Positions 2,998-25,707 of a DNA stretch of 25,707 nucleotides are shown piece after piece. Within the stretch, counting starts at the first letter, position 1. Each line of letters opens with the position of its first letter. The notes beneath the pieces are model-generated. The model searched no databases and was not told the origin of the DNA. It saw only the letters and a list, made by a program, of their open reading frames with translations. Source of the stretch: a virus; IMG/VR virus record IMGVR_UViG_3300008050_000276, positions 1 to 25,707 of that record; one strand, given 5' to 3'. Both the position numbers and the translations under genes were made by a program.

Positions 2998-3327
2998 TTA
3001 ACACGTTTCACAATATTGTGCATCGCACATTTCTTTTAATTCTTTTTTATACATATCAATTTTAACTTGATTCTTTTCTGCTAATGCAGCTTGATACATA
3101 GTATAGATTGTATATATCTTTAAAGCTCTTTTAGATTTAGTATGATGACAATCTGCTAAATCAATAGACAATAAGCTATTCTCTGCACATTGAAATAATT
3201 CCATATCAATACAAGACCCATCATCTATGCCTGCTTCTGCATCATAGTTCCCAGCTGTACTATCTGTACAGCCTGGGGACTTAAGCTTTAATGTAAATGA
3301 TTCTAAATGTTCGTAAGTAGAAGACAT
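2998..3327 (-). CDS. 109-aa Cys-rich protein with a GCxD...DGSC module
   Basis: Residues about 18-39 form a GCTDSTAGNYDAEAGIDDGSC module, a short Cys-bounded repeat common in flavobacterial secreted proteins. The remainder is helical and Cys-containing (ELFQCAENSLLSIDLADC, then ALKIYTIYTMYQAALAE and a final CDAQYCETC). The same module occurs at residues 179-200 of the giant protein encoded just upstream, so the two may interact or share a receptor or assembly partner. The start shares a base with the giant gene's stop (TAATG), implying coupled translation. There is no signal peptide, which fits a virion component rather than a secreted host-type protein. The function is unknown. Confidence 0.7.
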   Translation of the reverse strand: MSSTYEHLESFTLKLKSPGCTDSTAGNYDAEAGIDDGSCIDMELFQCAENSLLSIDLADCHHTKSKRALKIYTIYTMYQAALAEKNQVKIDMYKKELKEMCDAQYCETC

Positions 3328-6300: not shown

Positions 6301-9300
6301 CATCCTCCTGTATTTGTTATTGGATTGTTAGGACATAATACTAGTGACATATCATAATTCCCTAATCCATCTCCATCAGCATCATAGTAGTAAGTCATTT
6401 GAGTAGCAGGTTCACAGCAGTGCCCCCCAGATGTCCCTTCATCAGTTGTTGAAGTTCCTCCACATACTTCTGCGCAGTCAAGAACATTTCCATCACAATC
6501 ACATTCTTCCGCAGGAATACCAGAACCACCACATACACCACATTCATCTATAGTTTCTGTACAGTTATCTCCACAACTAAGACTCCATCCTGAAGGAAGC
6601 TCTGGATTACTCGCATCTGTATTAGTAGGACATTTCATTTCATAGTAACAAGATGAACAATCTCCTGTATTTCCTCCTTCAATAATAGCTGCTCCAGGAT
6701 TATAATATGGATTAACAGCGTAGCATTCTCCAAAACCATCTCCATCTGTATCTGGATACATTTTTAATTGTACATTATCTGTTGTACATCCTGGACAATA
6801 TCCTGCTGCTACAGCAGCAGCTATAACATCTCCACTACAGTCACATGTATTATCAATAACAGATGTAGAGGCATATAAATCCCAAGGTCTTGTTCCATCG
6901 CAATCACACACTCCATTAGATTGAGTAGAAGCAGGAACATTTCCTAAAAAGTCTCCATCACAATCACAAGCAACAGTAGTTGGAAGTCCTCCTCCACAAT
7001 CACAATATTTAATAGGATTAGAAGATCCTACAGAACCTAACCACCATTGAGCATCATCCATAATTCCAGCTAAGCCAGTGTCGAAAAGTTCATCTACAGC
7101 TGCACCAGTTATTTCTTTTATTTCCGTACCTGCACAATTACAATATGGAGACTCTGGGAATATAGTATTATCTCCATAATTCTGCATAAATCCTGCAAAC
7201 CCTACAGGTAACTCCTCTTGTGTAATGGCGTGATAAAACGCAGTTGGCGTGCCGCTTACCCCCGCAGTACCACAGCTTCCGCACCAACCTTCCATAGGAA
7301 CAAGTCCTCCCATACCATTACATTCACAATGTAAAAATGTAGCGTGTCCAGTACCATCCTCATCGGGATGAATGGCATCATTAGGTATAGATAATGGCCA
7401 AGTTATATTGGCAGGAGAAATATCTAAAGTACCTGCTGGGGAAAGCCCATATATAGTGGTTATATTCGATGTCCATCCTACAGGAACACCATTACAACCA
7501 GTGTTTATATTTGCATCAGGATCGTAATTACAAGAACCTACTACCGAGCATCCAGGGAAAGTACATAATACTGTATCTAGTTCTGGATAACTAACTACCC
7601 CTTCTGGGAGAGGGGATACACCGTTACTTGCAGCAGCATCACCACAAACTAAACAGTCAGGAACATTAGTATTATATTGTATATAATTCTCTGCTAAATA
7701 TTGTCCCTGAGCTGCAGCACCTTCGTCCACTAGAACATCAGACCAAAAATTAAATTCATTTTGATTAGTACTACTAGTCGAGCACCCCCCAACATCTGGC
7801 CCACAAGGGCCATAAGGATATGAGGTTAATGTTCCCTCACACCCACAAAGAGGATTAGGCGGATTACACATTTGATAGGCATGGTAACTACAATCTGAAC
7901 AATAGTTACAATCATCCACATTCAGACAACCACTTGTTCCTGGTGATAACTCACTTTCATCTATGAGTTGATCTTCAAACTTAGACCTATCAAATCTAAT
8001 TGTACGATCTGTATTTAATGAGGCTAAAGAATATTGAGTATCTTTTGATGGCGCTATGTGGTGTTCGTTTCTTACTCCCTCACTACTTGTTAAAGTCTTC
8101 ATTCCCAATGCGTATGAAGAATTCTCGTAACTATCTTGATTTACTATTCTTCCTACATAAGCTGGGTATTCGTCTAAGTCTTCTCTACTAGCTATTCCTA
8201 AATAAATAAAACCATCTGTACCTCTGTACATTTTAGTTATATCAAAATAAGGGCTTCTAGTTGATAATGACTGAATTGGCAAATGCTTTTCTCCATTCTC
8301 GGAATAGCTATCTTCAAAGTCTGCTGGCCAAAGGGCAGGGTCAGAATGTAAGAAAGGTGGAACTTCGCTAACTTGAGTATTAATTATACTACCACTGTCA
8401 TCTCGTACTAAATTAATTTTATAAATTCTATCTCCAAATCCGCTTTCATAAAAATCTTCTCCCAGATATTTAGGGCCGTTGCTATAGGCGCCACTATAAT
8501 TAAGATTCCAGTTCCCATAGTACGATATTACAATATATAATACACTAGCATCTGCACTAAAGCACATATCTTTAATAGTAAAAGGATAATAATTAACAGC
8601 ATCTATAACTTTTAATTCCTCTAAATATCCTTGTATAGTAGCTGTGTCTCCAGGGTACATACCAGAATCCCCCCAAAGCTCTGTATTATAATGAGAGGCT
8701 AAATCTATATTGCAATTATACGCGTTACCTTTAATAGCTTTATCTCCAGTATAAGGAAAAAGCATATTAGTAGTCGAATAAGTCCAAAGATCCTCTACTG
8801 AGCTATTATCATTTCCAGCATCAAAAGTATTTGAATCGCTATTACCTACTCCTGTTGTATTGTATATATACTCTGATATAACTTTTTCAATTAATATAGT
8901 TTTATCAAGCACTATATCTCCCTTCTCAAAATCAAAACTTCCTATAGAAATAAAATTACCGTATATATTAGTCTTTCTTGCTTTTTCGTCTTCTGAATTT
9001 GAATGCTTCGCATGCTCAAAATTAATAGCTAAATTATCCTTTCCATCCGTAGTAGTTAATATAGTCATTTTAGAAATAGAAGGAGAATGCCATCCCCCTC
9101 CAGTACCATAATCTCTGGAATCTATCATACTAGCATAATCATATGCTGGTAAATAATCAGGTATTATGGTACTAAGAGTATCTATAAAAATACTTTCACT
9201 AAACCTTAATACTGCCGACTCCCCCAGACTGAACCTAATATCATGGCTAGTATAGTGACCAAGAGGATTTATAATATCTTCCCAATCTGCAGTACTCTCT

Positions 9301-12300
9301 ACTTTAAACCCACTATCAACTTTATGTAAGCCAATTTTAGCATTTCCTACACTACTATTTAGATGAGTTACATGAGGATTTGGATTATTTATATATAATA
9401 GCCAATTATGAGTCCGACCATTAATCACGTGTAATCTGGAATTATCTAGGGGGCTATCATAAAATTGACCCTCATCACCATAGAATTGAGAGAACTCTGG
9501 CCAGTTATGTAGTTGCCCTATTCCTACAGGCCCCATGGTAACACTAGATACTTTAGGGACAACTGTAGGATTACTATAAGAATCAGAATTTACAGGAAAT
9601 AGTAGATTGTGCCACATTGAGTAACTATAATCCTCTACTATTGTACCCATATCAATATTTGTAGGAGATACAGAAGCCGTATCGCTCCTGTCAAACACTA
9701 TTTTTTTTATGCGTCCCCCAATTGGTGGACTAAGATCCCCATTCGTTGTGAATAAGTATATTGATCCAGGACGTGTAGGATCCCTTAAGAAAAGTGAATT
9801 ACCTAGAATATAATCAGATCTTGAATATCTATTTCCTCTATACCAAAGATCGTCAACTTTAACATTTAGTAAATCCTCATGCGTAAGGGGATTATCGTGA
9901 ATTACAGTATAATGATTATTGACATACACACCTCTCCAACTATCAGCAGATATATCATTATCTATAATATTCCCATCTCTACCTATAATCAATTTACGTC
10001 TTTGTGAAGCCATATCTTTATCTGGGACAGAAGCTACAAATAATAAAAGATTTCCATCTGTTGTGAATATTGAAGCGATCTCTCCACTATGAAGATTCAT
10101 TATGCCTGGATAAGGATGTCCTGTAAAGATGTCAAGATCGTCTAAAACAATATTATCTAAAACCCGAATAGTATCATCAGAAGTATTATATACTGTAGGA
10201 TGTTCATTTTGGTAAATGTCGAATGAGTAAGTATCTTCTGCAAATTGAATAGAAGATACTATTGATCCTGGATCAGATGAAGCTAAATTAGAATAAATAT
10301 TATGTTTAATACCTGTATAAACAGAAAAACTGTTATGTAAAGAAGGAGATATGTGTTTTACGCTAGAAAGGGTATTAATAGTAGTAAAAGACGTAAAGTC
10401 CATAATACCTAAAACTGTATCTGCCATTATAATTCTCCCATACTCTTCACTCTCATCTTCTCCAAAAACCCACACATTATTTTCATGATCTAATTCTATT
10501 TTAGATAGAATAGAAGATAAAGGATTTTCTAGTATTAAAGCATCTGATATTATCATTTGAGCTTTAGCAGCTCCATCTCCTTCCATTATTGTAGATGTAT
10601 TATAAACTACTACATAGCGATCATCAACACCTTCTCCTTCTACAATAGCATATAAAAAGTTATCTAACCTACTAAAGCAGGCAGATATAGGCTTCATACC
10701 TTGAAACTCTGAAGTCTTCTCGTCATTTATTACACCACCTGGAATATGTATTTCTACCCCTCCATCAGCAGGAGGTATAAATATACCTGTAGATGTAACT
10801 GACATTATAATAAACCCGTGAGCCACCCCGTAAGCAACTAAAAATACACCATCTGAGTATTCTTCCATACTTCCTGATGAAGGAGAATATTCAGCTAGTT
10901 CTACATTAAAGTGAGTACTATAATCTCCTGATACATATCTTCTTCTATTTCCTCTAACTATAGGAGTTTGAGATAGAACTTCATCTACATTTAATCTGCT
11001 TGGAGATGTAAGAGGATCTGTAGTAACTTCTACATGTTCTCCGCTAACTATATTAAATGTATTAGTTTCAAAGTTATATCCGTTCCCCGCTATTGTATGT
11101 ATATTTCTAGAATCCTGTGAAAAGCTAAATCCTTTTAAATAACTATACATTAGAGTTGGGGTTGTCTCATCAAAACTACCTATAGTTAAAATTCTATTAT
11201 AAAGAGTTCTTCTTACATCGAGATCGAATATATAAGGATGAATAAACTCAGCCGACGAATCCTGCCCCCAATTGGATGGAAACATACCAATAGCTTCTGC
11301 GTTTTGCCCATCCTCTCCTTTAGGAGTTACTGTATTATATATTAAATATGTTCCACTATAAACATCAAAATGGAGAAGTTTATTAAATCTTGCTCCCTTT
11401 ATAACAGTATTATCTTCATTGTGAGATAGAACATTAGAAAATGCATTTGTTAATGATATAGGAGTAGACTTATAGTATCCTTTATCCCCCACACTACTTC
11501 CTGATACTGAATTTATTATACCAGTTGTATAACCAGATGAAGAAAATTGCCTTCTATTTGTCTCATTGTCATTAATTACATCTTTTTCTGCATCCTCCCA
11601 ATCAAAGCTTCCGTAAAGATTTCCAAAACTACTACCCCCAAAAGCATCGGCTTGAATTAAAGTTTCTCCTAATGAATTCCCTAAAGCAGACCCAAAAGGC
11701 CCACCTTCTCTACAATCAATAATTTCACCCCCAGAACTATTATAATTAGGTAAAGTTGAATCTACCCAATTTATTCTAATGAATCCTCTATTATCTACAA
11801 TTGTATATGCTGAAATATTTTGATCCCCAAAAGTAATAATATTAGTATTAATACTTTGTACATTTTGAACTGCGCTTTCAGGAGATTCAGTATTCCAAGA
11901 CGGTGTTAAAGAGTCTTGTGGATTTAATTTATTCCCAAGTCTATCATAAATAAATAATTTATCTAAAAATGCAAAGGCAGTAAAAAGATTAGTGCCTCTC
12001 CCATTTGTAAATATAGAAGAAGAGGTGCGAACTAGATGATCATTATCAGTAGAACTATTTGTAGCATGTATACTATTTAGTTCTTCAAATCCTGAAACAT
12101 CATATCCAAGATGAGGCCCCCATACTCCAGAGGCAGTATAACTAAAATATTCATTGTTATAATTAAATTGTATTAATGTAGAAGGACTATCAATATTGGC
12201 AGGTAAATCTCTAGAGTGAATAATATTATCTTGCAGTTTAGAATCTGAGATAGCACTATTTTGTTTAGAGGCACACGAACCGTCACTGATAGTTGCGTCT

Positions 12301-12872
12301 GGATTGTAGTTCTCTGCTGTAGCATCTATGCATCCATAAACCATAGAATTTTTAATTCTAGGATTTCCGTATAGTTTATACGTATCTTCTATTAACTTTG
12401 TATAAGTAATAAGACCATTTCCTAATATTGAGCCGTCTTTAGTTATATTTACATCTGATAAAAAGATATAATTATTTTTAACATTAAGAGGATTCATAGG
12501 ACTATTCCTCGAAGAATTTTTAAATCCTAAAGACTCTCCTATAAAATGTATTAAATAAGAGATAGCCATATTATTAGATGGGCTATTACTTAATGTGTAC
12601 TCCCCATTTATAGTAAATTTAATGTCCAAAGATTCTGTCGAGGATACCTCAAAGGATAAATCTAAATTTCCTGATCTATTATTTGTTCTTGAGGAATGAT
12701 ATAAAGTATTAAAGAATAATTGCCATTGCGCTAACGCATTCTGCACTTCCCCTATATACTTAGTTTCACTAATAGCATTATAGTATAATACTACAGAAGT
12801 ATTGGTTCCTGCAGAAACACTATTAATAGCAGTTAAAAGTTTTTTATTATAGTTTATCGTAGAATTTAACAT
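3327..12872 (-). CDS. Giant 3181-aa adhesin-like virion protein with degenerate matrixin head and Cys-rich stalk
   Basis: The largest gene in the window. Residues 40-172 look like a matrixin (M10-type metzincin) domain: helix YIGEVQNALAQW, strand LDIKFT, site helix IHFIGESLGFKN (108-119), SPMNPL Met-turn (124-129) and a terminal helix ending KLYG. The catalytic Glu and two of three zinc His are replaced (H109-F-x-x-E113, N119), so it should be inactive. Residues 179-200 are a GCxD...DGSC module. Residues about 200-1640 are beta-rich with propeller-like repeats (for example DGFIYLGIA). Residues about 1644-2434 are Cys-rich with CDCDG, DECGVCGG and DxDGDGxG motifs resembling flavobacterial secretome modules. 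Residues about 2435-3181 form a further beta region. No signal peptide. It is probably a tail fibre or adhesin for host binding, inferred from size, modules and position after the fibre gene. Confidence 0.85.
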   Translation of the reverse strand: MLNSTINYNKKLLTAINSVSAGTNTSVVLYYNAISETKYIGEVQNALAQWQLFFNTLYHSSRTNNRSGNLDLSFEVSSTESLDIKFTINGEYTLSNSPSNNMAISYLIHFIGESLGFKNSSRNSPMNPLNVKNNYIFLSDVNITKDGSILGNGLITYTKLIEDTYKLYGNPRIKNSMVYGCIDATAENYNPDATISDGSCASKQNSAISDSKLQDNIIHSRDLPANIDSPSTLIQFNYNNEYFSYTASGVWGPHLGYDVSGFEELNSIHATNSSTDNDHLVRTSSSIFTNGRGTNLFTAFAFLDKLFIYDRLGNKLNPQDSLTPSWNTESPESAVQNVQSINTNIITFGDQNISAYTIVDNRGFIRINWVDSTLPNYNSSGGEIIDCREGGPFGSALGNSLGETLIQADAFGGSSFGNLYGSFDWEDAEKDVINDNETNRRQFSSSGYTTGIINSVSGSSVGDKGYYKSTPISLTNAFSNVLSHNEDNTVIKGARFNKLLHFDVYSGTYLIYNTVTPKGEDGQNAEAIGMFPSNWGQDSSAEFIHPYIFDLDVRRTLYNRILTIGSFDETTPTLMYSYLKGFSFSQDSRNIHTIAGNGYNFETNTFNIVSGEHVEVTTDPLTSPSRLNVDEVLSQTPIVRGNRRRYVSGDYSTHFNVELAEYSPSSGSMEEYSDGVFLVAYGVAHGFIIMSVTSTGIFIPPADGGVEIHIPGGVINDEKTSEFQGMKPISACFSRLDNFLYAIVEGEGVDDRYVVVYNTSTIMEGDGAAKAQMIISDALILENPLSSILSKIELDHENNVWVFGEDESEEYGRIIMADTVLGIMDFTSFTTINTLSSVKHISPSLHNSFSVYTGIKHNIYSNLASSDPGSIVSSIQFAEDTYSFDIYQNEHPTVYNTSDDTIRVLDNIVLDDLDIFTGHPYPGIMNLHSGEIASIFTTDGNLLLFVASVPDKDMASQRRKLIIGRDGNIIDNDISADSWRGVYVNNHYTVIHDNPLTHEDLLNVKVDDLWYRGNRYSRSDYILGNSLFLRDPTRPGSIYLFTTNGDLSPPIGGRIKKIVFDRSDTASVSPTNIDMGTIVEDYSYSMWHNLLFPVNSDSYSNPTVVPKVSSVTMGPVGIGQLHNWPEFSQFYGDEGQFYDSPLDNSRLHVINGRTHNWLLYINNPNPHVTHLNSSVGNAKIGLHKVDSGFKVESTADWEDIINPLGHYTSHDIRFSLGESAVLRFSESIFIDTLSTIIPDYLPAYDYASMIDSRDYGTGGGWHSPSISKMTILTTTDGKDNLAINFEHAKHSNSEDEKARKTNIYGNFISIGSFDFEKGDIVLDKTILIEKVISEYIYNTTGVGNSDSNTFDAGNDNSSVEDLWTYSTTNMLFPYTGDKAIKGNAYNCNIDLASHYNTELWGDSGMYPGDTATIQGYLEELKVIDAVNYYPFTIKDMCFSADASVLYIVISYYGNWNLNYSGAYSNGPKYLGEDFYESGFGDRIYKINLVRDDSGSIINTQVSEVPPFLHSDPALWPADFEDSYSENGEKHLPIQSLSTRSPYFDITKMYRGTDGFIYLGIASREDLDEYPAYVGRIVNQDSYENSSYALGMKTLTSSEGVRNEHHIAPSKDTQYSLASLNTDRTIRFDRSKFEDQLIDESELSPGTSGCLNVDDCNYCSDCSYHAYQMCNPPNPLCGCEGTLTSYPYGPCGPDVGGCSTSSTNQNEFNFWSDVLVDEGAAAQGQYLAENYIQYNTNVPDCLVCGDAAASNGVSPLPEGVVSYPELDTVLCTFPGCSVVGSCNYDPDANINTGCNGVPVGWTSNITTIYGLSPAGTLDISPANITWPLSIPNDAIHPDEDGTGHATFLHCECNGMGGLVPMEGWCGSCGTAGVSGTPTAFYHAITQEELPVGFAGFMQNYGDNTIFPESPYCNCAGTEIKEITGAAVDELFDTGLAGIMDDAQWWLGSVGSSNPIKYCDCGGGLPTTVACDCDGDFLGNVPASTQSNGVCDCDGTRPWDLYASTSVIDNTCDCSGDVIAAAVAAGYCPGCTTDNVQLKMYPDTDGDGFGECYAVNPYYNPGAAIIEGGNTGDCSSCYYEMKCPTNTDASNPELPSGWSLSCGDNCTETIDECGVCGGSGIPAEECDCDGNVLDCAEVCGGTSTTDEGTSGGHCCEPATQMTYYYDADGDGLGNYDMSLVLCPNNPITNTGGCTGAGCYVQDNNDPDDTCAGVYDQCDVCNGDNSCLDCLGEPFGSAEVDECDVCDGDNSTCADCAGVANGFAYSDDCGDCVGSCENCVPEANYNQNICGVCNEPDPLPGQCCEGEFLCECEGDGTCLPDGSECSEDLGCGCGLLAPEDYACPADCDNGDTYGCCDGYVWDECMQQCMVGSSASYQQTVSNPCNPSECVSPALAESSYVCTYCTDPEAENYLHNCDGVLLGEIPEGEPVFDSGCCEYAVFEDPSIDSEVDVVGNLAPYIEAVMVAVPETYEECTTGQGVSTPAAFTHITWQQHSHESVVSTSCPGTDCTDYEYLKSFYSGGDLYSVTLKNRSFTEKCQVIKNNHKKIYVDNVGYNGEVIFSGLTEEYVKTGRYFNVIDASHFLVPQSIASGGVFSPYDIYQEENPEGCASSDNPYSILCGWDRYITPNEVLLTDSTTFGDPIQYLPPISGATYIYKPQFYFRLDADIELSTYDPNVLFAEYADKIEKVERFWINTPDGVGLSTGGVATETNMTYFEHIMNPTAIVVYNPMTGSTELLNKGNRYTEAQNIGEAGESIEYPDGTTVTNWENNTRPAYWVYKITPKTNASGVYEEFVIDLDSFTPPEVVGMCTSADAINTGFTANGDTITDVSIINDTINGDSPLYNTDNSLCNFSNCDGIFENVCCADTYINSIQNQGLTPSDIGVYGGEHECKVCNFSVCEATEVCTDQTAIDWTDTSLLSGIAWTINNDLCTYPEIAEGDLRIDVWVNVSNLDNVELSRLEWLIYSTQQNIMLQSPNILSVSAEGGVAHYSVPLLGLPACTWLLPLGVDEAEVWTQTLLQINSGPVGSPYTHHEIAYGATNTPGGSIPLNAVGIGGCPVGCNWASNDLITEHCVHYIQEDEDEFTELFLEIDTAYVQENPDAYKCASVNVINISSNEVMVGQTSFAHNSQTILTFNVTGDTKVGIKVNNPPCGGGGRSINDNYPIKYTLKTEQGEILTTKTIY
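5570..7940 (-). repeat. Cys-rich, Asp-rich modular region of the giant protein
   Basis: This part of the 3181-aa gene encodes about residues 1644-2434. It is dense in paired cysteines with imperfect repeats: CDCDG or CxC units (several between about 6480 and 7020), DECGVCGG / QCDVCNGD / DECDVCDGD units (about 6120-6550), and two calcium-loop-like units DTDGDGFGE (near residue 2041) and DADGDGLGN (near residue 2163). These repeats also create recurring DNA words such as ccatcacaatcaca. Similar strings are common in secreted proteins of Flavobacteriia; disulfide and Ca2+ stabilisation is inferred from that resemblance. Confidence 0.75.
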
Positions 12873-12883
12873 AATACTTTAAA

Positions 12884-14410
12884 TTATTTTAATGGGATTA
12901 TTTGGAATGAATATAGATTTATATCTCCTACTGCTGTTGCTGCAGTAACATCTACGCTAACTGTAATAGTTCTTTCCCAGTCTATATCTAAAGTGTTAAT
13001 TACACCAACAGCTTGAGTAGTTCCTACGAGCCCTTTAGAATACGCAATAGTTTTCATTGTATCTGAATGTAGTAGGGTGGCTTCTAAAACTCCAAATTTA
13101 GCATTAGGTGCTGCTTCTGCATTTGAACTATCTAATACTGTATTTCCATCCACCACTAATTTTACTGTTTTATCATTAGCTGTTGCTGCAAAAGCACAAG
13201 ACGCTACCAATTTAAAGGAGGTTCCTACTGGATAATCACTTAAATCTACATTTATAGCCATTAAGGTTTCCTCAGTTGCTGCAGCTGCAACTCTTTCTCC
13301 TGTAGTAGTATTATCTGTTAAAACTGATTTAACTTTAATTGCATCTAAATCTACAGGAAGATTATTCTCTATAAACCATCTGCTATCTCCATCAGTATAT
13401 AACTTAATAGATCCTCCATCAGAAGATAATCTAAAAGAATTAGCTCCTTGTATACTATCAGTACTAGAAGATTTAATTAAAATAGAATTTTTAACAGAGG
13501 ATTTATATTCATCTTTAATTCTATATTTTACAAGTTTAGGATGTTTAAGAGACGCTATAGTAGGAAGTGTTAATGTTACGCCCCCTCTTCTACAATCTAC
13601 TCCAATTAAACCTTTATCTGCTTCTGTTAATGTATATGAAGTAAAAGATACAGGAGTTCTATTATATGCTGAAGTAGCTTCAATAGCATTTTTAAGCTTT
13701 AAAGGGCTTACCACAGAATCGTCAGTAGCTAATTCTTCTATTTCTAAATCTGTAGATTTTTTTAATATACCCGCTTTAGACTCAGTTGCATCAATTACAT
13801 TTGTATTTACTATAGCAAACTGATTACCTACTTCCCCATAAGTTCCTCCAGCACTATCTGATAAACATATTAAAATATCACCTGCTTGAATTTCAGGACC
13901 ATCAGTAGCAAAACTAGTGTGATCAGTATCAATAAGAATCACATCTCCAGCAGAAGCCGCAGGATACCCATTAGATCCATTTCTTCTTTGCACTGTTTTT
14001 AATGCAGACTTTAACTGAGTATCTACAAATTCTTTATCTACTAAGTCATTATCTGAAAATATACTTTTACCAGAATAAGACAGATTATTACTTAGAGCAA
14101 TACTACCATCGCTTCTAAGCACATTTGACACCGCTTTATCTACATAAGATTTTGTAGATAAGTGATTAGCATTTGTAGGATTCTTTCCTTTTGCAGGCTT
14201 TGAGAAAGATGGGGCATCTTTTAAAACCGTTTTTGCTAAAGTATTCTTATTAATACTTTTAATTTGCCCTGCTAATCTTGAGAGTTTAGCCTCAAGTTCT
14301 CCAAGTAAAGACTTTTTAGTTATTGTTTTTACCTTTCCATTTTGCAAAACAGTTAGCCTGTCTGCATTATTACTCTTGGACGCTTTTGGAAGTTCAGATA
14401 TTTTTGCCAT
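12884..14410 (-). CDS. Tail-fibre-like structural protein
   Basis: A 508-aa protein. The N-terminus (MAKISELPKAS...ADRLTVLQNGKVKTITKKSLL) is a short motif I recognise from many phage fibre and appendage proteins, probably for attachment to the virion. A coiled-coil-prone helix follows (residues about 35-60). TKSYVDKA (87-93) and VDKEFVDTQL are fibre-type repeats, and a segment at about 210-245 (SKAGILKKSTDLEIEELA...SPLKL) matches the phage tail-fibre repeat style. A beta module starts at about residue 257 (YTLTEADKGLIGVD), and the C-terminus is a beta-rich tip ending INLYSFQIIPLK. There is no signal peptide. The ATG follows an A/T-only leader with no Shine-Dalgarno. It lies 11 nt upstream of the giant adhesin gene, so the two are probably co-expressed parts of the host-contact apparatus. 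Confidence 0.78.
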   Translation of the reverse strand: MAKISELPKASKSNNADRLTVLQNGKVKTITKKSLLGELEAKLSRLAGQIKSINKNTLAKTVLKDAPSFSKPAKGKNPTNANHLSTKSYVDKAVSNVLRSDGSIALSNNLSYSGKSIFSDNDLVDKEFVDTQLKSALKTVQRRNGSNGYPAASAGDVILIDTDHTSFATDGPEIQAGDILICLSDSAGGTYGEVGNQFAIVNTNVIDATESKAGILKKSTDLEIEELATDDSVVSPLKLKNAIEATSAYNRTPVSFTSYTLTEADKGLIGVDCRRGGVTLTLPTIASLKHPKLVKYRIKDEYKSSVKNSILIKSSSTDSIQGANSFRLSSDGGSIKLYTDGDSRWFIENNLPVDLDAIKVKSVLTDNTTTGERVAAAATEETLMAINVDLSDYPVGTSFKLVASCAFAATANDKTVKLVVDGNTVLDSSNAEAAPNAKFGVLEATLLHSDTMKTIAYSKGLVGTTQAVGVINTLDIDWERTITVSVDVTAATAVGDINLYSFQIIPLK

Positions 14411-14423
14411 TTTATATTATTTT

Positions 14424-15218
14424 TTATTCAAAAATTAAAGTATTGCCATGCTCGTCAGATATATGTTCCCGATTTTCATTGGTTATTATCGTATCTTCTA
14501 TATCTGACTGGCCCAAAGGTGTATTAATGGAATTAGAATAATTACGATCTATGTTTTTATACACAAAATTTAAATCTACAGCTATTGTATCTAATATAAG
14601 ATTATATTTACTTATAAGATCATAGGAGATTGGTTTCCCTTCTTTCATAGCATTGCTTCCACCAGTTACTTTTGCAGTATTAAATTGTATTCCTTTAGAG
14701 CCTTTTATTAGTTTACCGTTAAAGTTAGCCCCCACATTATTGAATACTACTTTAATGCTATTATCGGTTGTACCATAGGCTAAAGAGGTAGAACCTGCAG
14801 GATAATGATGAGGAGAAACATTACTTCTTCCTTGTAGTATTCTTTGTATAAGTACAGCTGAAGGTATACTTTCATATACTGTAAACTTAGAGATAGGGAT
14901 AGTACGATTATATACATCAGTTATATAAATAACAGCTATATTAGGTATAGAACTCTTGCCTGAAGAGAGAGAATAAGAACGTAAACCTGTAGATATATTA
15001 TTTAATACAACCATTGCAGGATCTCTATGATCTAATGAGGTTACCATACTTATACGCTCTTCTAAGTATTTAAGCCAACTACTTATCACAGCTAGCTTTA
15101 GAGGAATTGATTTATTAATATTTCCTTTAGAGTATCGCTCTGCAAGCTGCAAAGAATATTCTTGATACTTCATTTTTGCAAATTGCAACTTATTATATAA
15201 TTCATTTTGGCTTATCAT
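14424..15218 (-). CDS. Hypothetical structural protein with N-terminal helical domain
   Basis: A 264-aa protein. Residues about 1-60 are helical (NELYNKLQFAKMKYQEYSLQ, then KLAVISSWLKYLEERISMV), similar in style to short helical attachment domains seen in other Bacteroidetes-phage tail proteins. The middle is beta-rich (IPNIAVIYITDVYNRTIPIS, SIKVVFNNVGANFNGKLI). The C-terminus is again helical (LISKYNLILDTIAVDLNFVY). No enzyme motif, signal peptide or membrane helix is visible. It stands between the large metalloprotease-like gene and the fibre gene, so a tail-tip or baseplate adaptor role is the best guess. I do not recognise a named family. Confidence 0.65.
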   Translation of the reverse strand: MISQNELYNKLQFAKMKYQEYSLQLAERYSKGNINKSIPLKLAVISSWLKYLEERISMVTSLDHRDPAMVVLNNISTGLRSYSLSSGKSSIPNIAVIYITDVYNRTIPISKFTVYESIPSAVLIQRILQGRSNVSPHHYPAGSTSLAYGTTDNSIKVVFNNVGANFNGKLIKGSKGIQFNTAKVTGGSNAMKEGKPISYDLISKYNLILDTIAVDLNFVYKNIDRNYSNSINTPLGQSDIEDTIITNENREHISDEHGNTLIFE

Positions 15219-15227
15219 AAAAATATT

Positions 15228-18200
15228 TTATCTTGCAAAATTAGACATTTTATTTAGAATATCCTTACATTTGTTGAATTTTTCTGTTTTATCTTTTTTG
15301 TCTTTTGACACTGAAGGATAACTCAATTTATAAGAATTTCTTTCTTTTTTAGAGTAACTGTAGTAACACCCGCTTTGTGGGCTTATTACAACATGATCTG
15401 AATATAACACATTAGAATCAAATTTCATAAGATTTAATCCTATAGAATTATAAACTACGTAGGTGCTTACAGCAGATGCTGTTCTAGTTCCTTCGCACTC
15501 TGAACAATCTACAGTAGCAAGTTCGTCTACACCTTGAACACATGTCTGCGCTTCACTACTCCAAGAACCAAAACAACACTCAGCTGGATCATAATAAATA
15601 ACATTAATTTCGCCATTATATTCAAACATAGGACCATATGTATAAGGATCTGTAGGTAGTACAGACTGCGCCCCTTCACCCAAAAACTGGGCGTACTCGT
15701 TGTTACAAACTAATACATCTAGTGATAAACAATGAGATATAATATTAAGTCCAGGAGTAGTTAAATCTACTTCTCCTAAAATAGTGCTTGCGCCTCCTGT
15801 AGGATCTGAAATATCACTAAGAGTAGGAACCACATATTCCATAGCTGCTTTACCTTTTAATAAAAAGTCATGTACTTCATTAGTATCGCTATACTCAGTA
15901 TTACGTAAATCAATTTCGTCTGCATATTCCATAGCCCTATTGTATATACTATATCTACTTTCTACTACAGCTTCCATTCTAGCTATTTGATCAGGACTAA
16001 ATACATAAGCTCTTGCAGCAGAAATATTACTTGACTTTAGATTATCTGGCTCAAAAGGAGCAGCTAGATTGTCTTCATAAATTTTTATCTGACTCCCAGA
16101 AGTATAATGCATAATATTTCTAAATATACCACTCTCCATATTTGCTCCTAAAGATTTTTGATTATGTAAACTAATTTGAGCATTATTACTTTTTGTATAA
16201 TGGTCTGTAGCGTCTTGTGCTACAGAGCCTAAAACTCTAAAAGGATTATACAAAGATGCTCCTGGATCTGTACTTCCAAAGAAAAATTTTAAAACAATAC
16301 TAGGGCTAAACCAAATGTGGGAATCTATATAACTTCCTTGTGCCATACAATCTGCATCACCATACCCATATAAATATTGACTGCTTCGCCCTGCTTTATT
16401 ATTAAAAGAAGAGAATGTATATGTAGGTGTAACAGCTAGATCTCTACCTGTATCAGATATTCCGTCTCCTTCTAAAGCCCATCCTCGAAACCAAATATTA
16501 GAAAAAGAAGTTGACTGTGCAGAACCTTGAGTTGACCCAAAAGCAGTATTAGCAAAAGCAGTATTATTAAATTTGAATTCTAATGGTATTGCAGACTGAG
16601 CATGCAGCCCTGTATACCCCCAATAAGGTATTTCTATATTAGGATAATCACAATTATTATTTATACATTGTTTATCTAATATATGATGCTCAAAAAATAC
16701 TCCTCTCCCGTGCGGAAAAGAATGCAATCTAGCCCCATATCGTCTAACTGCAGGAAAATGGTTATCAAACTCTAAAGTGTTAGCATATACTTCCACAAAG
16801 GATCCGTGAACTTTCTGGTTCCCACAGAACGAAGAAGTTTTATTTACTCCAAAGAAATGATCTTTATTAAAATAACTATTAGAACCATCATCATTACTAG
16901 TCCTAGTCATTAAATTACCATAGTAATTACTCTCTGGGTCTTCATTCCATTTAAAGTCTAGATATGCATAAAGCATATATAATTTATATGCGTCTGTCCC
17001 ATTATCTGTAGGAACTTCTCTATAGGTATTCCAGTATCCATAAGCAGACCCATATATATCTGTACTATCCACTACATTACTGCCGTTTTTAAAAGTTAAA
17101 TCTTCAGTTTTAGCATTTATAGGAGTATAGGTAGCTAAATTTAATGTCCAAGGAATTTCACCATCTATCACATCTCCAGGAGTCTCATAATAATAATGTT
17201 GTTCTGTATGTAAGCAAGGACATAAAGGATCTCCATTATCATCAACTGCATCATATATTTTTGATACAGGCCAATTACTTGGGTATTTAGGAAATCTAGG
17301 ATCTAACCAATTAAAATTAATATACCAAAAAGGATCAAATTCATCTGTTTGTAGGTACTCTCCCGTACCCTCTCCAAACTCATCTACAGCTTCTTGTAGT
17401 TTACAAAAAGGAATATAGGTAGTAATCTGAGGTCCTTTTCTATTGTCAAAAATTTCAGTTTCTACAAAGTCAGGTAAAGATAAGATTCCTGCTGCCTCAA
17501 GAGCATCTAGATGAGATTCCGAATCTACAAGGTATCTTTTTTTACGTAAAGGTCTTGTTTGTATATTCTGAGCATAAATATCAGTATCAGGATCTACGTT
17601 AGTATTAGTATAATTTGCATCAGTTATATAATGATGTGCTCTATGTGTAGCATTATTATATATGTCATCAGAGTGTAAAGGAAATAACTTTATATAGTCT
17701 CCACTTCTGAAAGATGTCCATACAAACTTACCAGAAGCATCTCCTACATAAGCATTATATGCATTATAGGTTATCTCGTTATTACCTAACAAATACCCTA
17801 GAGCCTCCATTAAAACATCTTTAGCCTCTTGATACTCTGAAGGGTATCCTATATAATAATAATCATGTATAGCTTCATTACTATTAAAATAAGTATCTAA
17901 AGCCCAATTATAAGTATCACTAGGTTCACCAACAGAAGGGTTAAAATCGTCATAATGGTTTACAATAGTCAAATCTCTATTTACATCTAAGGCTTTTTCT
18001 GTATAATTTGCCCCACTACCATTCCAAAGCTTCCAAGACCAAGGATCACCAAAACTAGTACTAGTATGTTTATATATAGCATAAACATCTGCAAAAATAT
18101 TAAGCCCCTCCATGAAATAGTCAACTTTATATATATAAAACTGATTTGACCCACTTCCTATTGTATCCCCTGGATCAGGTAAACCTAACCAACTTAAAGT

Positions 18201-19826
18201 AGTTAAATTGGGCATTGCGACAGATCGAGACGATCTCAAAGAATCCTCAGTAACTGGATTGATAACCATCTCCTTAGATCCATCCTCATGTGTTATATAA
18301 CTTCCTCCCCAAAAAGAAGGTACTCTATTTATAATTGCAAAAAATTCAGTTAAATCAAGAGCGTTGTCATTACCAGGAATTCCTAAATAATTATTTATAA
18401 CAGACATTGGGTTTTCAGAATCTCCTCTATTAAATTCTATTTTTCTTTCGAAAAATCCAGTTGCTAATCTAGCTCCGTTATTATATATATTTTCAACATA
18501 TACCATTTCATTCTCAGATATTTCTTCAAAGTCAGTAGTGTCTTCTGTATCTTGATCTATATACTCAAAAGGAGGAATGAAAGAATTAGTAGTATTTTCA
18601 AAAAAATCAAGTTTAAAACTACTCCCTTCTTCAGGGAATAAAGGACTGACAAATGCTAATCTAGCTTCTGCCGCCTTACTCCCTCCTCCAAATATATGTT
18701 GAAGACCTAGCGAGTGTCCTAATTCATGGCCCCAAACTGTAGCATCAGACGATCCAAAAGTAGTTACTCCTGCGGGGGCCCAAGAAGAAGTAGATTGAGG
18801 GAAACTAGCTTTACCCCCAGGAGCACTACTTATTACTAAATTAATACCTGGGAATCTTACAAAAACAGGAGACCAAGGCCCTGGCTGCTCAAATTCTGAA
18901 GTATACCCAAGATCCATTCCTTGAGCTGTTAATACTGGATAACCTTCATGAACTTCAGGGCCTTTTAATTCTCTTACAAAAAAAGATTCATTATCAAAAG
19001 GGTGACCATCATAATAATTAGATGCTACCGCAAATACAGAAGGATTAGTGGCATACTCTTCACTTTGAAACATCATAGGCCAATTAAAAACTACCCCATA
19101 TTCTCCTCCCCAAAAGTATTCATCTCTTTCATTTCCCTCATCTAATACAGGAATAGAATAGTAGTTTTTAAAGTTATAATCTTTACCTGCCTCATCATAG
19201 TACGATGTTACCCCATCTGCAGAAGATATAAAAGATGCATTAGGATCCGATTTAGTTATACGTGAATTTACAGCACCCGCATTAGAAGTGGGTGCCTCTT
19301 GATAAGAGCTTCCTCCCCAATTTATATCTTGCCACCAATGCGAGATTCTTCTATTTTCTTTAAATAAAGGGTTTATCCACGATTTAGGAACTTTCTGAGG
19401 TATTTTAAGTCTAAGCTTAGACTCTATTCCGTGACTTTCATCGTCTTGAGCAGGATGATCTCCATATATCCCTGCAAGCATATCATTGATAGCTTCTACA
19501 ACTCTGGCAGCATATTCTCCATATCCTTCAGAATCCCCAGGCTCACTATATGCTTTATTATACCAAGCACGTTTTATAAAATGAACCCAGCAAGGGATAT
19601 AGATTAATTCATTTTCATTATAAGTTACATAAGGAGCGCTTCTTTGTTTTCTAGCAAAAGATCTATTCTTTATTATTTTTTTAAACTCCTCTTGTACAGT
19701 ATGTGTTAAACCAAGAATCTCTTCGTTTGTTACATCAGTATCCAAAGTTTGACATGAACCTGAAGATCCTTGACTGATAAACTCATCCCCACAACAACGA
19801 TTTTTTAAATGATTATCTTTTGCCAT
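15228..19826 (-). CDS. Large M43-like metzincin metalloprotease with an ~860-residue insertion, tail-associated
   Basis: A 1532-aa protein with an intact zinc-protease signature HELGHSLGLQH at residues 367-377 (His367, His371, His377 as ligands; Glu368 catalytic). Preceding pieces also fit the M43/pappalysin core: IPCWVHFI (77-84), INLVIS (328-333) and GKASFPQ (338-344). Further parts of the core appear much later: GDGISDT (near 1117), Met-turn NIMHY (Met1239) and FSPDQIARM (1276-1284). About 860 residues therefore separate the zinc motif from the Met-turn, against well under 150 in ordinary M43 enzymes. The C-terminal ~170 residues are Cys-containing and end in a Lys-rich helix (FNKCKDILNKM). 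No signal peptide, so it is probably a virion protein that cleaves or binds host surface protein. Start and stop of neighbours overlap (TAATG at 19826). Confidence 0.82.
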   Translation of the reverse strand: MAKDNHLKNRCCGDEFISQGSSGSCQTLDTDVTNEEILGLTHTVQEEFKKIIKNRSFARKQRSAPYVTYNENELIYIPCWVHFIKRAWYNKAYSEPGDSEGYGEYAARVVEAINDMLAGIYGDHPAQDDESHGIESKLRLKIPQKVPKSWINPLFKENRRISHWWQDINWGGSSYQEAPTSNAGAVNSRITKSDPNASFISSADGVTSYYDEAGKDYNFKNYYSIPVLDEGNERDEYFWGGEYGVVFNWPMMFQSEEYATNPSVFAVASNYYDGHPFDNESFFVRELKGPEVHEGYPVLTAQGMDLGYTSEFEQPGPWSPVFVRFPGINLVISSAPGGKASFPQSTSSWAPAGVTTFGSSDATVWGHELGHSLGLQHIFGGGSKAAEARLAFVSPLFPEEGSSFKLDFFENTTNSFIPPFEYIDQDTEDTTDFEEISENEMVYVENIYNNGARLATGFFERKIEFNRGDSENPMSVINNYLGIPGNDNALDLTEFFAIINRVPSFWGGSYITHEDGSKEMVINPVTEDSLRSSRSVAMPNLTTLSWLGLPDPGDTIGSGSNQFYIYKVDYFMEGLNIFADVYAIYKHTSTSFGDPWSWKLWNGSGANYTEKALDVNRDLTIVNHYDDFNPSVGEPSDTYNWALDTYFNSNEAIHDYYYIGYPSEYQEAKDVLMEALGYLLGNNEITYNAYNAYVGDASGKFVWTSFRSGDYIKLFPLHSDDIYNNATHRAHHYITDANYTNTNVDPDTDIYAQNIQTRPLRKKRYLVDSESHLDALEAAGILSLPDFVETEIFDNRKGPQITTYIPFCKLQEAVDEFGEGTGEYLQTDEFDPFWYINFNWLDPRFPKYPSNWPVSKIYDAVDDNGDPLCPCLHTEQHYYYETPGDVIDGEIPWTLNLATYTPINAKTEDLTFKNGSNVVDSTDIYGSAYGYWNTYREVPTDNGTDAYKLYMLYAYLDFKWNEDPESNYYGNLMTRTSNDDGSNSYFNKDHFFGVNKTSSFCGNQKVHGSFVEVYANTLEFDNHFPAVRRYGARLHSFPHGRGVFFEHHILDKQCINNNCDYPNIEIPYWGYTGLHAQSAIPLEFKFNNTAFANTAFGSTQGSAQSTSFSNIWFRGWALEGDGISDTGRDLAVTPTYTFSSFNNKAGRSSQYLYGYGDADCMAQGSYIDSHIWFSPSIVLKFFFGSTDPGASLYNPFRVLGSVAQDATDHYTKSNNAQISLHNQKSLGANMESGIFRNIMHYTSGSQIKIYEDNLAAPFEPDNLKSSNISAARAYVFSPDQIARMEAVVESRYSIYNRAMEYADEIDLRNTEYSDTNEVHDFLLKGKAAMEYVVPTLSDISDPTGGASTILGEVDLTTPGLNIISHCLSLDVLVCNNEYAQFLGEGAQSVLPTDPYTYGPMFEYNGEINVIYYDPAECCFGSWSSEAQTCVQGVDELATVDCSECEGTRTASAVSTYVVYNSIGLNLMKFDSNVLYSDHVVISPQSGCYYSYSKKERNSYKLSYPSVSKDKKDKTEKFNKCKDILNKMSNFAR

Positions 19827-21433
19827 TATACAATAGAATTTATTATTTTTTTGATTTTATTAAAAGTATTAACCATCTTTGTGGAAGATATTCGAGTATT
19901 TGTGCTTCTAGTTACTTTCTTTTGGTGGCCCAAATTACTAGATATAATCTCATGAAAATTATCTATAGGTACTACCCCATCTATGTAGAAGTCTTCACAA
20001 GGATCATGCTCTGCTGTAATAACATCATCATCTTCCTCTATAATATCATCAATAATATCATCAATAATATCATCATCTATAATATCATCATCAATAATAC
20101 CATCATCAACATCAGAGGGTTTTGTAACCTGAGAGTGGAGTAAATGAGTTAGTATACTTGAAGGTTTAATTTCATTTTCCTGCAATAAAAAATTTGCTCG
20201 AATTCTTTTTACTTGCTCACAAGTTAATTCATATCTTTCTGTAGAAGGTAAAATGGGATTTTGTCCAAATAGATTATCTACAAAATATGGGTGTGCCATT
20301 AAATTATACCCCTCATAAGTTGTGTCTTTATCGTACCTGGGATTAGCACATCTCATACTTATTATATTAGTATCTCTAAAAGTTAAGTACTCTGAAAACA
20401 ATATATGAGGTGTATCATCACAACAATCTCCTATAAATCTATTACCATCAAATCCACATTGAGTCTTATCATCATTAAAACATGCCTCCGTCCAAGCAGT
20501 AGTATCCAACATATCATTATCTGATAGAGTATAACTTTCATCACCAGAATATAAAATACTACTATAAAATTTAGTATGAAATAAACTTAATAAATTAAAA
20601 CTCATAGCAACTGCATGAATTATAGAAATATAATCACCATTAGTAGGAATATCATCTGCCGCTACTACTATAAGTCCACCAGCTTCCGCATATATTGGGA
20701 ATGGAAGTTCAGTATTTTCATATGAATACCCAACCTCCACTGGTAATGCATAAAAAGGAATTACTATACCAAAGTCTTCTGGTTTTTCTGTTATTTCAGC
20801 AGTAATAGAATTAACTATATCAGAATATTTCAAATCTAATTCTATCCCTAGAGACCAATCTCCTTCTTGTGAAGTCGCTACAGCTTCCCCACAAACTGCA
20901 TTTACTAAATAAATATTAAAATATTTATATGGATCCCAACCAATTTCTTTTTTTAAACTCTCTATAGGATAACCAGTATCATACCAAGACCATTCATTAT
21001 GAATTTGAATACCTTTATCTCTATAAAGAAAAGTACGACTTTCTCCTCCAAAGTCTCCATATGGAACTATATAATTATATGTTTTATTTTGCCAATCATG
21101 TCTAGCTATTCCAGGTTCAAGTAAAGGTTGATTATCTGGGCCTAGAAAAGCTGGTTTAAAGCTGATATTATATTGACTATAATATGCATTTAAGTTACCT
21201 AATATTTTATGTATTCCATCTACAGGAATATTATTTTCTATTTTATCATATACTATATGAAATACAACAGGTATTATTAAATTTTTTACATTTAATGGTG
21301 AATCTTTAAAATTATTATTATCAATATAAAACTTAAGATCCTCATTATATTCACGAAATTGTCTTTCATGGCTATCTAAAGATGCTCTAAACTTCTGTTC
21401 AAACCCATAATTTACTTCGTGATATAAGGCCAT
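19826..21433 (-). CDS. Inactive M43/pappalysin-like pseudo-metalloprotease
   Basis: A 535-aa protein whose order of landmarks follows the M43B family: IIPVVFHIVYD (53-63), LNAYYSQYNISF (81-92), YFNIYLVNA (171-179), AGGLIVV (251-257), active-site helix IIHAVAM (271-277) with a following LSLFH (282-286), a DDTP element (339-342), NLMA in place of the NYM Met-turn (377-380), and LTCEQVKRIRA (403-413). In the HExxH motif Glu is Ala274 and the second His is Met277, so catalysis should be lost. An acidic Asp/Ile repeat linker (about 441-470) joins it to a basic C-terminal tail ending NTFNKIKKIINSIV. No signal peptide. Probably a binding protein of the tail, derived from a protease. Coupled by TAATG junctions to both neighbours. 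Confidence 0.75.
   Translation of the reverse strand: MALYHEVNYGFEQKFRASLDSHERQFREYNEDLKFYIDNNNFKDSPLNVKNLIIPVVFHIVYDKIENNIPVDGIHKILGNLNAYYSQYNISFKPAFLGPDNQPLLEPGIARHDWQNKTYNYIVPYGDFGGESRTFLYRDKGIQIHNEWSWYDTGYPIESLKKEIGWDPYKYFNIYLVNAVCGEAVATSQEGDWSLGIELDLKYSDIVNSITAEITEKPEDFGIVIPFYALPVEVGYSYENTELPFPIYAEAGGLIVVAADDIPTNGDYISIIHAVAMSFNLLSLFHTKFYSSILYSGDESYTLSDNDMLDTTAWTEACFNDDKTQCGFDGNRFIGDCCDDTPHILFSEYLTFRDTNIISMRCANPRYDKDTTYEGYNLMAHPYFVDNLFGQNPILPSTERYELTCEQVKRIRANFLLQENEIKPSSILTHLLHSQVTKPSDVDDGIIDDDIIDDDIIDDIIDDIIEEDDDVITAEHDPCEDFYIDGVVPIDNFHEIISSNLGHQKKVTRSTNTRISSTKMVNTFNKIKKIINSIV
20039..20110 (-). repeat. Short tandem repeat encoding an Asp/Ile-rich linker
   Basis: Imperfect tandem copies of the unit atcatcaata (plus strand), with variants, inside the 535-aa gene. 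On the coding strand they give repeated IIDD and DDII units at about residues 441-467. The unit length keeps the reading frame, so the tract can expand or contract by slippage without frameshift. It acts as an acidic spacer between the pseudo-protease domain and the C-terminal tail. Confidence 0.8.
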
Positions 21434-22092
21434 TATATACTTTTTAATGTTTCTAATAAACTGTAAGCAACACTAATTTGATCTACATCTGTGTCATCAC
21501 AGTCTTCACATCGAAAATCTGCAGAAGTAGCTAACTCATCTACCATTTGTTGAGTTAAACATACATTATTAAATTTAGTTGCTTTTCCTGGAAACTGATC
21601 TCCGTCTGTATTTACATACGTAGGAGTTACCATGTAGATGGCATCTTCTAATACTTTCCATTCAGTTAAATTGTCTAGGATATATAGGGATTGAGCACTT
21701 GTTAAATTATAAGATCCATATAGAGTTGTTACCTCAGAAACAATTTGCTGCCATACGAGAGCAGCAGAAATTTTTAATTTAAATTCTTTTAAGGATGTTT
21801 CTAATGGAGTTACATATTCTCCAGCCCCTGTATCTTGAATTAAAGAATCCTCACCTATAAATATAGAAGAGTTATTTACTACAAGTTCTAAAATAGTAGT
21901 ATCTGTTTCACTTATAGGTACTTCTAATAATACAGTAGTAACAAGTATAATACTACCTGAGTCCGCAGAAGCATTAAATACTCCCCATCCTCCGACATTT
22001 GTTTCAGGATTATAATCTCCTGTAATATCTTTAATCATTAAATCCGCACAGTCATTGGCGGTATATACTTTAAGTTTTAAGTCTAAAGGCAT
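21433..22092 (-). CDS. Hypothetical phage structural protein (219 aa)
   Basis: A 219-aa protein beginning MPLDLKLKVYTANDCADLMIKDITGDYNPETNVGGWG. The segment DxTGxYxxxxNxGGWG (23-37) is a pattern I associate with structural proteins of Bacteroidetes phages, though I cannot name the family. A beta-rich N-terminal half (to about residue 100) is followed by a helical half (LKISAALVWQQIVSEVTTLY) and a Cys-rich end (FRCEDCDDTDVDQ). No signal peptide or membrane helix. It is the first gene after the strong terminator and the first of the coupled adhesin operon; its stop overlaps the next ATG (TAATG). A base-of-fibre or tail adaptor role is inferred from location. Confidence 0.65.
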   Translation of the reverse strand: MPLDLKLKVYTANDCADLMIKDITGDYNPETNVGGWGVFNASADSGSIILVTTVLLEVPISETDTTILELVVNNSSIFIGEDSLIQDTGAGEYVTPLETSLKEFKLKISAALVWQQIVSEVTTLYGSYNLTSAQSLYILDNLTEWKVLEDAIYMVTPTYVNTDGDQFPGKATKFNNVCLTQQMVDELATSADFRCEDCDDTDVDQISVAYSLLETLKSI

Positions 22093-22161: not shown

Positions 22162-23091
22162 TTAAGAGTCTCCGTGTACATTTGCACTAGCATCAGTATA
22201 TCCTAATACCTCATCTAGCTCATCTGCTCCTGTTACAGGAGTATTCGGCATAGCTAAAACAATTTGACATCGTCCTGCCCCTGCCCCTGCAACTGCATAC
22301 TTAGGGTCTTCTAATGGAGTATCTATAACTGATATATCATAATTAGTAGCAGCTACTGCATTAAGAGAAATTAAGTGGTTGTTACTAGGAATACCTTGAC
22401 GGTAAGGAGCGCCTGATGCACCCATTCCAAACCATTCTAGTTCTGCAACTTCTTCACCTGCTCCAGAACCATGAACTACACCAGTAACAACGTTTGTTGC
22501 TGTTGAAGCAAATCCGTCGATTGTTACATCAAACAATACCATAGTGTAAGCATGAAGACCTAAACTCCAGTCTTGAGCTTTACCAATAAGAGTCATACCA
22601 TCAGTACCTACAGCTGCTGCTGTAACTTTATCTTTACAACTTTCTTGAGCATTAACTTTAGCTACAAACTTAGCCATAACTTCTCCAGCTGTAACTGTAT
22701 CACCAGTTGTATACTCAAAGAAGTATTGATCAGATTGATTAGAGAATAACTCTGTATTGTGCTTGAAGTTAATTCTCATAGTGTAACGAGTATTTGGAGT
22801 ATCGTCACATAAATCTAAAGTAGTTATTTGCTCTGTTCTTCCTGCATAAGCAAGACCTTTTACGTTAGCTGCTTTAAATTTAAATGTAGGAGATTTACGA
22901 ACATTACCTGCCGCATCTTTTATAGCTACATAAACTTCAGTATCGTCAGCAATTACTGCACTACCATCACCGATAGAGCTACCATCTTTATTTAATATAC
23001 AAATTTGATTTGCAGCTGCGTCTGCCAAAGTATCACTATGGTCAAAACTAGTACCAACAAATACGTGTAATGAATTATCTGTTTTAAACAT
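22162..23091 (-). CDS. Beta-rich structural protein, possible tail-tube or major virion component
   Basis: A 309-aa protein without signal peptide or membrane helix, rich in Ala, Gly, Thr and Val with alternating strands (TRYTMRINFKHNTELF, QYFFEYTTGDTVTAGEVMAK, YTMVLFDVTIDGF). The segment TAGEVMAKFVAKVNA resembles helices of phage structural proteins that follow a strand pair, and AELEWFGMGASGAPYRQGIP is a further conserved-looking block. It is the last gene before a strong terminator and directly follows other virion genes, as expected for an abundant structural protein. I cannot tell a tail-tube protein from a head decoration protein; a fold prediction would separate them. Confidence 0.65.
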   Translation of the reverse strand: MFKTDNSLHVFVGTSFDHSDTLADAAANQICILNKDGSSIGDGSAVIADDTEVYVAIKDAAGNVRKSPTFKFKAANVKGLAYAGRTEQITTLDLCDDTPNTRYTMRINFKHNTELFSNQSDQYFFEYTTGDTVTAGEVMAKFVAKVNAQESCKDKVTAAAVGTDGMTLIGKAQDWSLGLHAYTMVLFDVTIDGFASTATNVVTGVVHGSGAGEEVAELEWFGMGASGAPYRQGIPSNNHLISLNAVAATNYDISVIDTPLEDPKYAVAGAGAGRCQIVLAMPNTPVTGADELDEVLGYTDASANVHGDS

Positions 23092-25350: not shown

Positions 25351-25707
25351 TCAGACAGTAGAGTTGTAAATCAATTCTGCACAAGACATTGGGTTTGCAA
25401 TAAGCACACCTTGTTGAGCTTGAGCGAATAATTGGTAACCATCTACTGCAGATGCAGATCCTTTAGAGAACGCAGTGTTCGGACCAAGTGGAGAAGTAGA
25501 ACCAGCTACGTGCCACATTAATTCTTTACGTCCTTTAGGATATACTCGACGAATGTTTTTCTCACCACCTGAAGTACCCATGTTAAGGATAGTATAACGG
25601 TAAGATTCAGTATAACCACCTTTAGGGTGTGCAATACGGTTACGAACTTCGTTATCATACATTGGTAAGTGTACTAAAGTAAAGCGGATACCTTGTGGTC
25701 CCATAAA
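25351..25707 (-). CDS. Probable major capsid protein, C-terminal fragment
   Basis: The frame is open to the window edge (the codon before the first visible Met is TTT, so that Met is probably internal) and ends at 25351, giving about 118 visible residues. The visible part contains GIRFTLVHLPMYDNEVRN, SYRYTILNMG, RKELMWHVAGS, DGYQLFAQAQQGVLIANP and a final MSCAELIYNSTV. The pattern of a strand-rich domain ending in a GxxIxNPxxCxEL segment fits the C-terminus of HK97-fold major capsid proteins of crAss-like and related phages as I remember them. Location next to connector and structural genes agrees. The N-terminal part lies outside the window, so this is moderate confidence only. Confidence 0.6.
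   Translation of the reverse strand, partial: FMGPQGIRFTLVHLPMYDNEVRNRIAHPKGGYTESYRYTILNMGTSGGEKNIRRVYPKGRKELMWHVAGSTSPLGPNTAFSKGSASAVDGYQLFAQAQQGVLIANPMSCAELIYNSTV

Follow-up and report, generated by a model that had tools for sequence, protein, structure and literature searches.

What might a phage gain from encoding three metzincin-type protease folds in a single locus when only one of them retains a complete zinc-protease site? This question is raised by three proteins encoded on the reverse strand (as are all the features of the window described below) of a 25.7-kb window, which constitutes the whole of the IMG/VR virus record IMGVR_UViG_3300008050_000276: a protein of 535 aa (A; 19826-21433), one of 1532 aa (B; 15228-19826) and, separated from B by two small genes, a giant protein of 3181 aa that is probably a fibre or adhesin (C; 3327-12872). 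A first-pass annotation had noticed the motifs HELGHSLGLQH in B, HAVAM in A, and HFIGE followed by an Asn at the third-His position together with SPMNPL in the head of C, and had read them as one intact and two dead metzincins, the latter from different subfamilies. All of these motifs are where it placed them.

One end of the window (25351-25707) is occupied by an incomplete major capsid protein gene, which runs off the contig; the C-terminal part that it encodes shows at most 41% identity to the major capsid proteins of Crassvirales. The window additionally encodes a crAss-type auxiliary capsid protein (22162-23091; Pfam crAss_AuxCP, 7e-9). The crAss-type major and auxiliary capsid proteins are found in the conserved order seen in Crassvirales, and these two matches identify the window as part of the genome of a crAss-like phage. 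When bacterial genomes were scanned with the capsid fragment, no relative from which a host could be assigned was recovered; based on its Crassvirales relatives the host is very probably a member of Bacteroidota.

When viral contigs were scanned with A or B as a single query, no matches were obtained because the module is too variable, and a tblastn search with the A and B proteins of the window and its relatives against 50,697 GenBank phage records likewise returned none. Related loci were instead reached via the capsid protein, the capsid fragment recovering 60 loci, most of them 87-100% identical to it. In sufficiently long contigs these display a recurrent gene order, namely capsid, 289-aa, 220-aa, 220-aa, auxiliary capsid, 219-aa, A, B, 264-aa, 508-aa, C, 109-aa, 120-aa and 102-aa, and the arrangement from A to C is shared by about 20 related contigs, such that the same trio is present throughout. 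A chance origin of the motifs can be rejected, since these syntenic relatives keep the HExxHxxxxxH signature in every readable B and lack HExxH in A and C.

Sequence profiles as well as structure prediction place A with the pappalysins. A profile of 21 A proteins recovers from the PDB mirolysin (5e-6), ulilysin and PAPP-A as the only significant matches, with other metzincins far behind. The A protein of the window has no match in Pfam, and Pfam M43 matches 5 of the 21 A relatives. However, the window protein matches the NCBIfam family TIGR03952 (BF0631; Bacteroides metzincin lipoprotein) with its N-terminal part (3.9e-7), while in one relative the match to the same family (2.9e-9) spans the active-site region. 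The AlphaFold model, with a pTM of 0.69, a mean pLDDT of 59 and low confidence past residue 280, matches mirolysin in the VIA comparison with a Z-score of 19.4 (rmsd 2.8 over 228 aa), the families that follow having Z-scores of about 11. The fold, predicted to span residues 48-440, shares with the pappalysins (the M43 family of ulilysin, mirolysin and PAPP-A) and with TIGR03952 a GD..DTP-type loop (GDCCDDTP, residues 335-342; 20408-20431) and a Met-turn region (NLMAHP, residues 377-382; 20288-20305), and many members of the family retain a GDC.D loop and a Met-turn followed by an F(T/S)xxQIxxxR helix.

What sets A apart from the pappalysins is its active site: in the window HAVAM (residues 273-277; 20603-20617) stands in place of HExxH, and HExxH with its catalytic Glu is missing from all 22 distinct A relatives. 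In three of these (L010, L028 and L041), which form one group with a support of 100/100, all three zinc-binding His residues are kept and Ser or Thr replaces the Glu. Thus, by profile and by model, A is a predicted pappalysin fold from which the catalytic Glu is gone family-wide. Three A counterparts (L052, L058 and L059) are about 960-1090 aa long versus the usual length of about 480 aa, and their active-site region has diverged further.

B shows the opposite condition. Its active-site helix HELGHSLGLQH (residues 367-377; 18696-18728) conforms to HExxHxxGxxH, and HExxHxxxxxH is kept in 19 of the 19 B genes whose site can be read (a count that leaves out the partial copy in L019, where the site cannot be judged); H367, E368, H371 and H377 are invariant across 17 aligned members. 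This complete zinc-protease site suggests that B is apparently active. The B profile has its best PDB match in myroilysin (2.9e-6), followed by fragilysin, MMPs and astacin. The active-site helix is matched by both Pfam M43 and Pfam M10, and the B counterpart of L178 scores above the gathering cut-offs of both. The intact site reported by the first-pass annotation stands, but the core of B to which it refers appears not to be contiguous, as the Met-turn of the window protein is about 860-870 residues downstream of the HExxH helix. Across the family this distance varies between 529 and 956 residues, for which there is no counterpart in the pappalysins. The distal part of B nevertheless carries their landmarks: GDGISDT (residues 1120-1126; 16449-16469), for which relatives have DLLSDTP, resembling the GD..DTP of pappalysins, and the Met-turn NIMHY (residues 1237-1241) followed by an FSPDQIARM helix (residues 1276-1284; 15975-16118 for both). 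An MxY Met-turn is found in 12 of 15 aligned relatives, one or the other of the GDGISDT and DLLSDTP motifs precedes it in several, and a subset has an FSPDQIxRM-type helix. The distant Met-turn, the GD..DT motif and the FSPDQIARM helix make a pappalysin-like domain that is interrupted by a very large insert of 529-956 residues the best reading of these motifs and alignments. Tolerance of a 500-950-residue insertion by a metzincin catalytic domain would be unusual for the fold.

The third fold occupies residues 1-170 of C (12363-12872). AlphaFold predicts residues 1-205 with a pLDDT of 82.8 and a pTM of 0.82, and in the VIA comparison all 50 of the 50 matches listed are M10 or MMP structures, including karilysin, with Z-scores of 8.6-9.6 and rmsd values mostly of about 3 over 115-126 residues (2.9 over 120 aa for the best). 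Foldseek places myroilysin and MMPs at the top, with E-values of 7e-3 and above, and a viral structure library yields viral MMPs. Although moderate in strength (Z 9.6, Foldseek E 7e-3), these matches are uniform. The head shares with the matrixins (M10, MMPs, karilysin) the predicted fold, an IGxxLG helix and a SPMNP Met-turn; in the window these are represented by HFIGESLGFKN (residues 109-119; 12516-12548), in which Asn119 takes the third-His position, and SPMNPL (residues 124-129; 12486-12503). It differs from them in lacking the HExxHxxGxxH zinc site and the catalytic Glu, and in being fused to a fibre-like protein of 3000 residues. The C head of the window has no match in Pfam. HExxH is missing in 12 of 12 family members, most of which keep the IGxxLG helix and a SPMNP-like turn. 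The C head is hence, on the structural matches and the alignment, a predicted matrixin fold from which the catalytic residues are absent family-wide. Directly 3' of it lies a repeat unit, GCIDATAENYNPDATISDGSC (12273-12335), and an IMG/VR scan with the C-head alignment gave results dominated by a GCTDP repeat. Further along C, residues ~1500-2400 contain about 80 cysteines per ~900 residues in an otherwise cysteine-poor protein.

With A grouping with the M43 pappalysins and the C head being M10-like, the two dead domains belong, as had been proposed, to different subfamilies and are not the products of one recent duplication. A comparison of the C-head profile with those of A and B aligned the helix alone (E 0.05 and 0.42, respectively). 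We also considered whether A and the C head might be functionless remnants of proteases undergoing loss. The Met-turn is indeed gone from the C heads of L168 and L172. However, A is dead in every one of its 22 relatives and C in every one of its 12, their frames are open in all relatives, and the dN/dS is below 1 (0.54-0.83 for A; 0.37-0.83 for A and C together), which makes this explanation very improbable. Recent decay can be rejected for the same reasons, and a catalytic loss common to all relatives argues for reuse. Accordingly, going by these alignments and models, A and the C head represent pseudoproteases of long standing, conserved next to a protease that is itself conserved and appears active, and this suggests that the virus particle has retained dead proteases as structural or binding components. 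The reuse in virions of catalytically dead enzyme folds is known in general; in the open-access literature that we searched, neither a phage pappalysin nor a phage pseudoprotease module is described. Conserved pseudoproteases beside a live protease would offer a natural setting in which to test how enzymes that have lost catalysis acquire roles in structure or binding.

The pattern of divergence across the locus points to where such roles might be exercised. Measured against the window, the capsid fragment has a median identity of 94% and the adjoining gene one of 78%; the values fall to 23% in A and 22% in B (with two A or B entries that were unaligned being scored as 1), are 23% in the 264-aa protein, 32% in the C head and 46% in the 508-aa fibre protein, and climb again downstream of the A-to-C module. 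A hypervariable island within a conserved virion block is, we infer, the pattern of host-contact genes, and the variability of the module together with its position would fit a role in host contact. Our preferred reading, which we hold with slightly better than even confidence, is that of a conserved, hypervariable host-contact module, belonging to a clade of uncultured crAss-like phages, in which the live B would serve as a virion protease, A as its partner or as a sister head, and the C head as a docking domain.

The same variability is what would be expected if A and the C head were themselves receptor-binding domains that use their old substrate clefts to hold host proteins, which B then cuts: both belong to the hypervariable stretch, where receptor-binding proteins are typically encoded, and A, which has kept its whole fold along with the Met-turn and the GD..DTP loop, may retain such a cleft. 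The C head, however, fits poorly with this. It is better conserved than A or B, and it is always N-terminal in the giant protein or, as in L071, encoded by a separate 252-aa gene adjoining the rest of C, and fibres are usually docked on the virion by their N-terminal domains. We regard this alternative as possible but rather unlikely as a whole. For the C head, its N-terminal position fits a structural domain that docks or caps the giant fibre at its base, and by analogy with other fibres host binding would be no likelier than docking on the virion. For A, a partner or scaffold for B and a host-binding domain are equally good readings of the sequence.

As to B, a comparison with the cultured Cellulophaga phage phi14:2, also a member of Crassvirales, is instructive. 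Profiles of three upstream genes match, in unchanged order, its g088, g089 and g090; next in phi14:2 come g087, g086 (a pectate lyase) and g085 (a tail protein), which are annotated on the basis of mass spectrometry as proteins of the virion. The equivalent place in the window is held by a 219-aa protein immediately upstream of A (21433-22092), A, B, a 264-aa protein (14424-15218) and a fibre-like 508-aa protein (12884-14410; phrog_910 tail collar fibre, 7e-4; relatives 33-48% identical), the positions of these three smaller genes being conserved. Like B, the phi14:2 pectate lyase is encoded by a large enzyme gene two genes past the auxiliary capsid gene, within the virion block. It differs in that the phi14:2 enzyme cleaves a polysaccharide while B is protease-like, and no pseudoenzyme partner is noted in phi14:2. 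The presence of a virion pectate lyase at the equivalent place leads us to propose that B would fill its slot as a virion enzyme acting on a host surface protein, trimming or digesting such proteins at adsorption or entry. Virion enzymes of Bacteroidota phages are commonly viewed as polysaccharide lyases; a protease apparently in the lyase slot would imply that the host bears protein receptors or is coated with protein.

Alternatively, B might act off the virion, being secreted or released at lysis to act on nearby cells or the extracellular matrix. A precedent exists in Listeria, where the phage-origin metzincin Mtz is secreted (PMC8235301). We consider this improbable for B, as its gene is within the virion gene block and its N-terminus as translated has, by eye, no obvious signal peptide.

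The same Listeria system bears on the relationship between A and B, since Mtz comes with a dedicated TIMP-like partner, Tim, and it thereby resembles what B and A might be, namely a metzincin with a dedicated partner gene (PMC8235301). It differs in comprising a secreted protein and a lipoprotein that act on the cell wall, and in that the partner is TIMP-like and not a dead protease (PMC8235301). In our loci A is directly 5' of B in every case, with the stop of A and the start of B overlapping or at most 8 bases apart in 19 of 20 loci, and the two diverge at a similar pace; this would fit A serving B as a partner without catalysis of its own, or as a sister head that binds the substrate to hold or present it. 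The overlap of the frames is by itself no proof of a complex, because tight spacing is common across the operon. These observations, along with a weak similarity between the N-terminal regions of A and B (profile comparison, P 1.7e-4), would also be consistent with A being a dedicated regulator of B, such as an inhibitor, chaperone or latency partner, that arose from a dead copy of the fold and keeps B off until adsorption. One locus (L072, 1334-8859 in reverse complement coordinates) has two tandem B genes, each with an intact HELGH site, and one A. This is at odds with a dedicated regulator, and even with the Listeria precedent we find such a function for A doubtful. Beyond the preferred reading of the module as host-contact apparatus, a more specific proposal may be advanced tentatively, with somewhat less than even confidence: protease folds would here be standing host-contact parts, with B and A an old enzyme-pseudoenzyme pair, a dead matrixin capping the giant fibre, and B opened up by insertion.

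Two further proteins are encoded downstream of C. A 339-aa protein (1297-2316) has a signal-peptide-like start and looks like an outer-membrane barrel by eye, with no match in Pfam and PHROG searches. It is 91% identical in L071, where the adjoining genes are 37-52% identical, and hence it may move by recombination. The other (87-458) is a thioredoxin-like protein (Pfam PF00085, 8.5e-9), likewise with a signal-peptide-like start.
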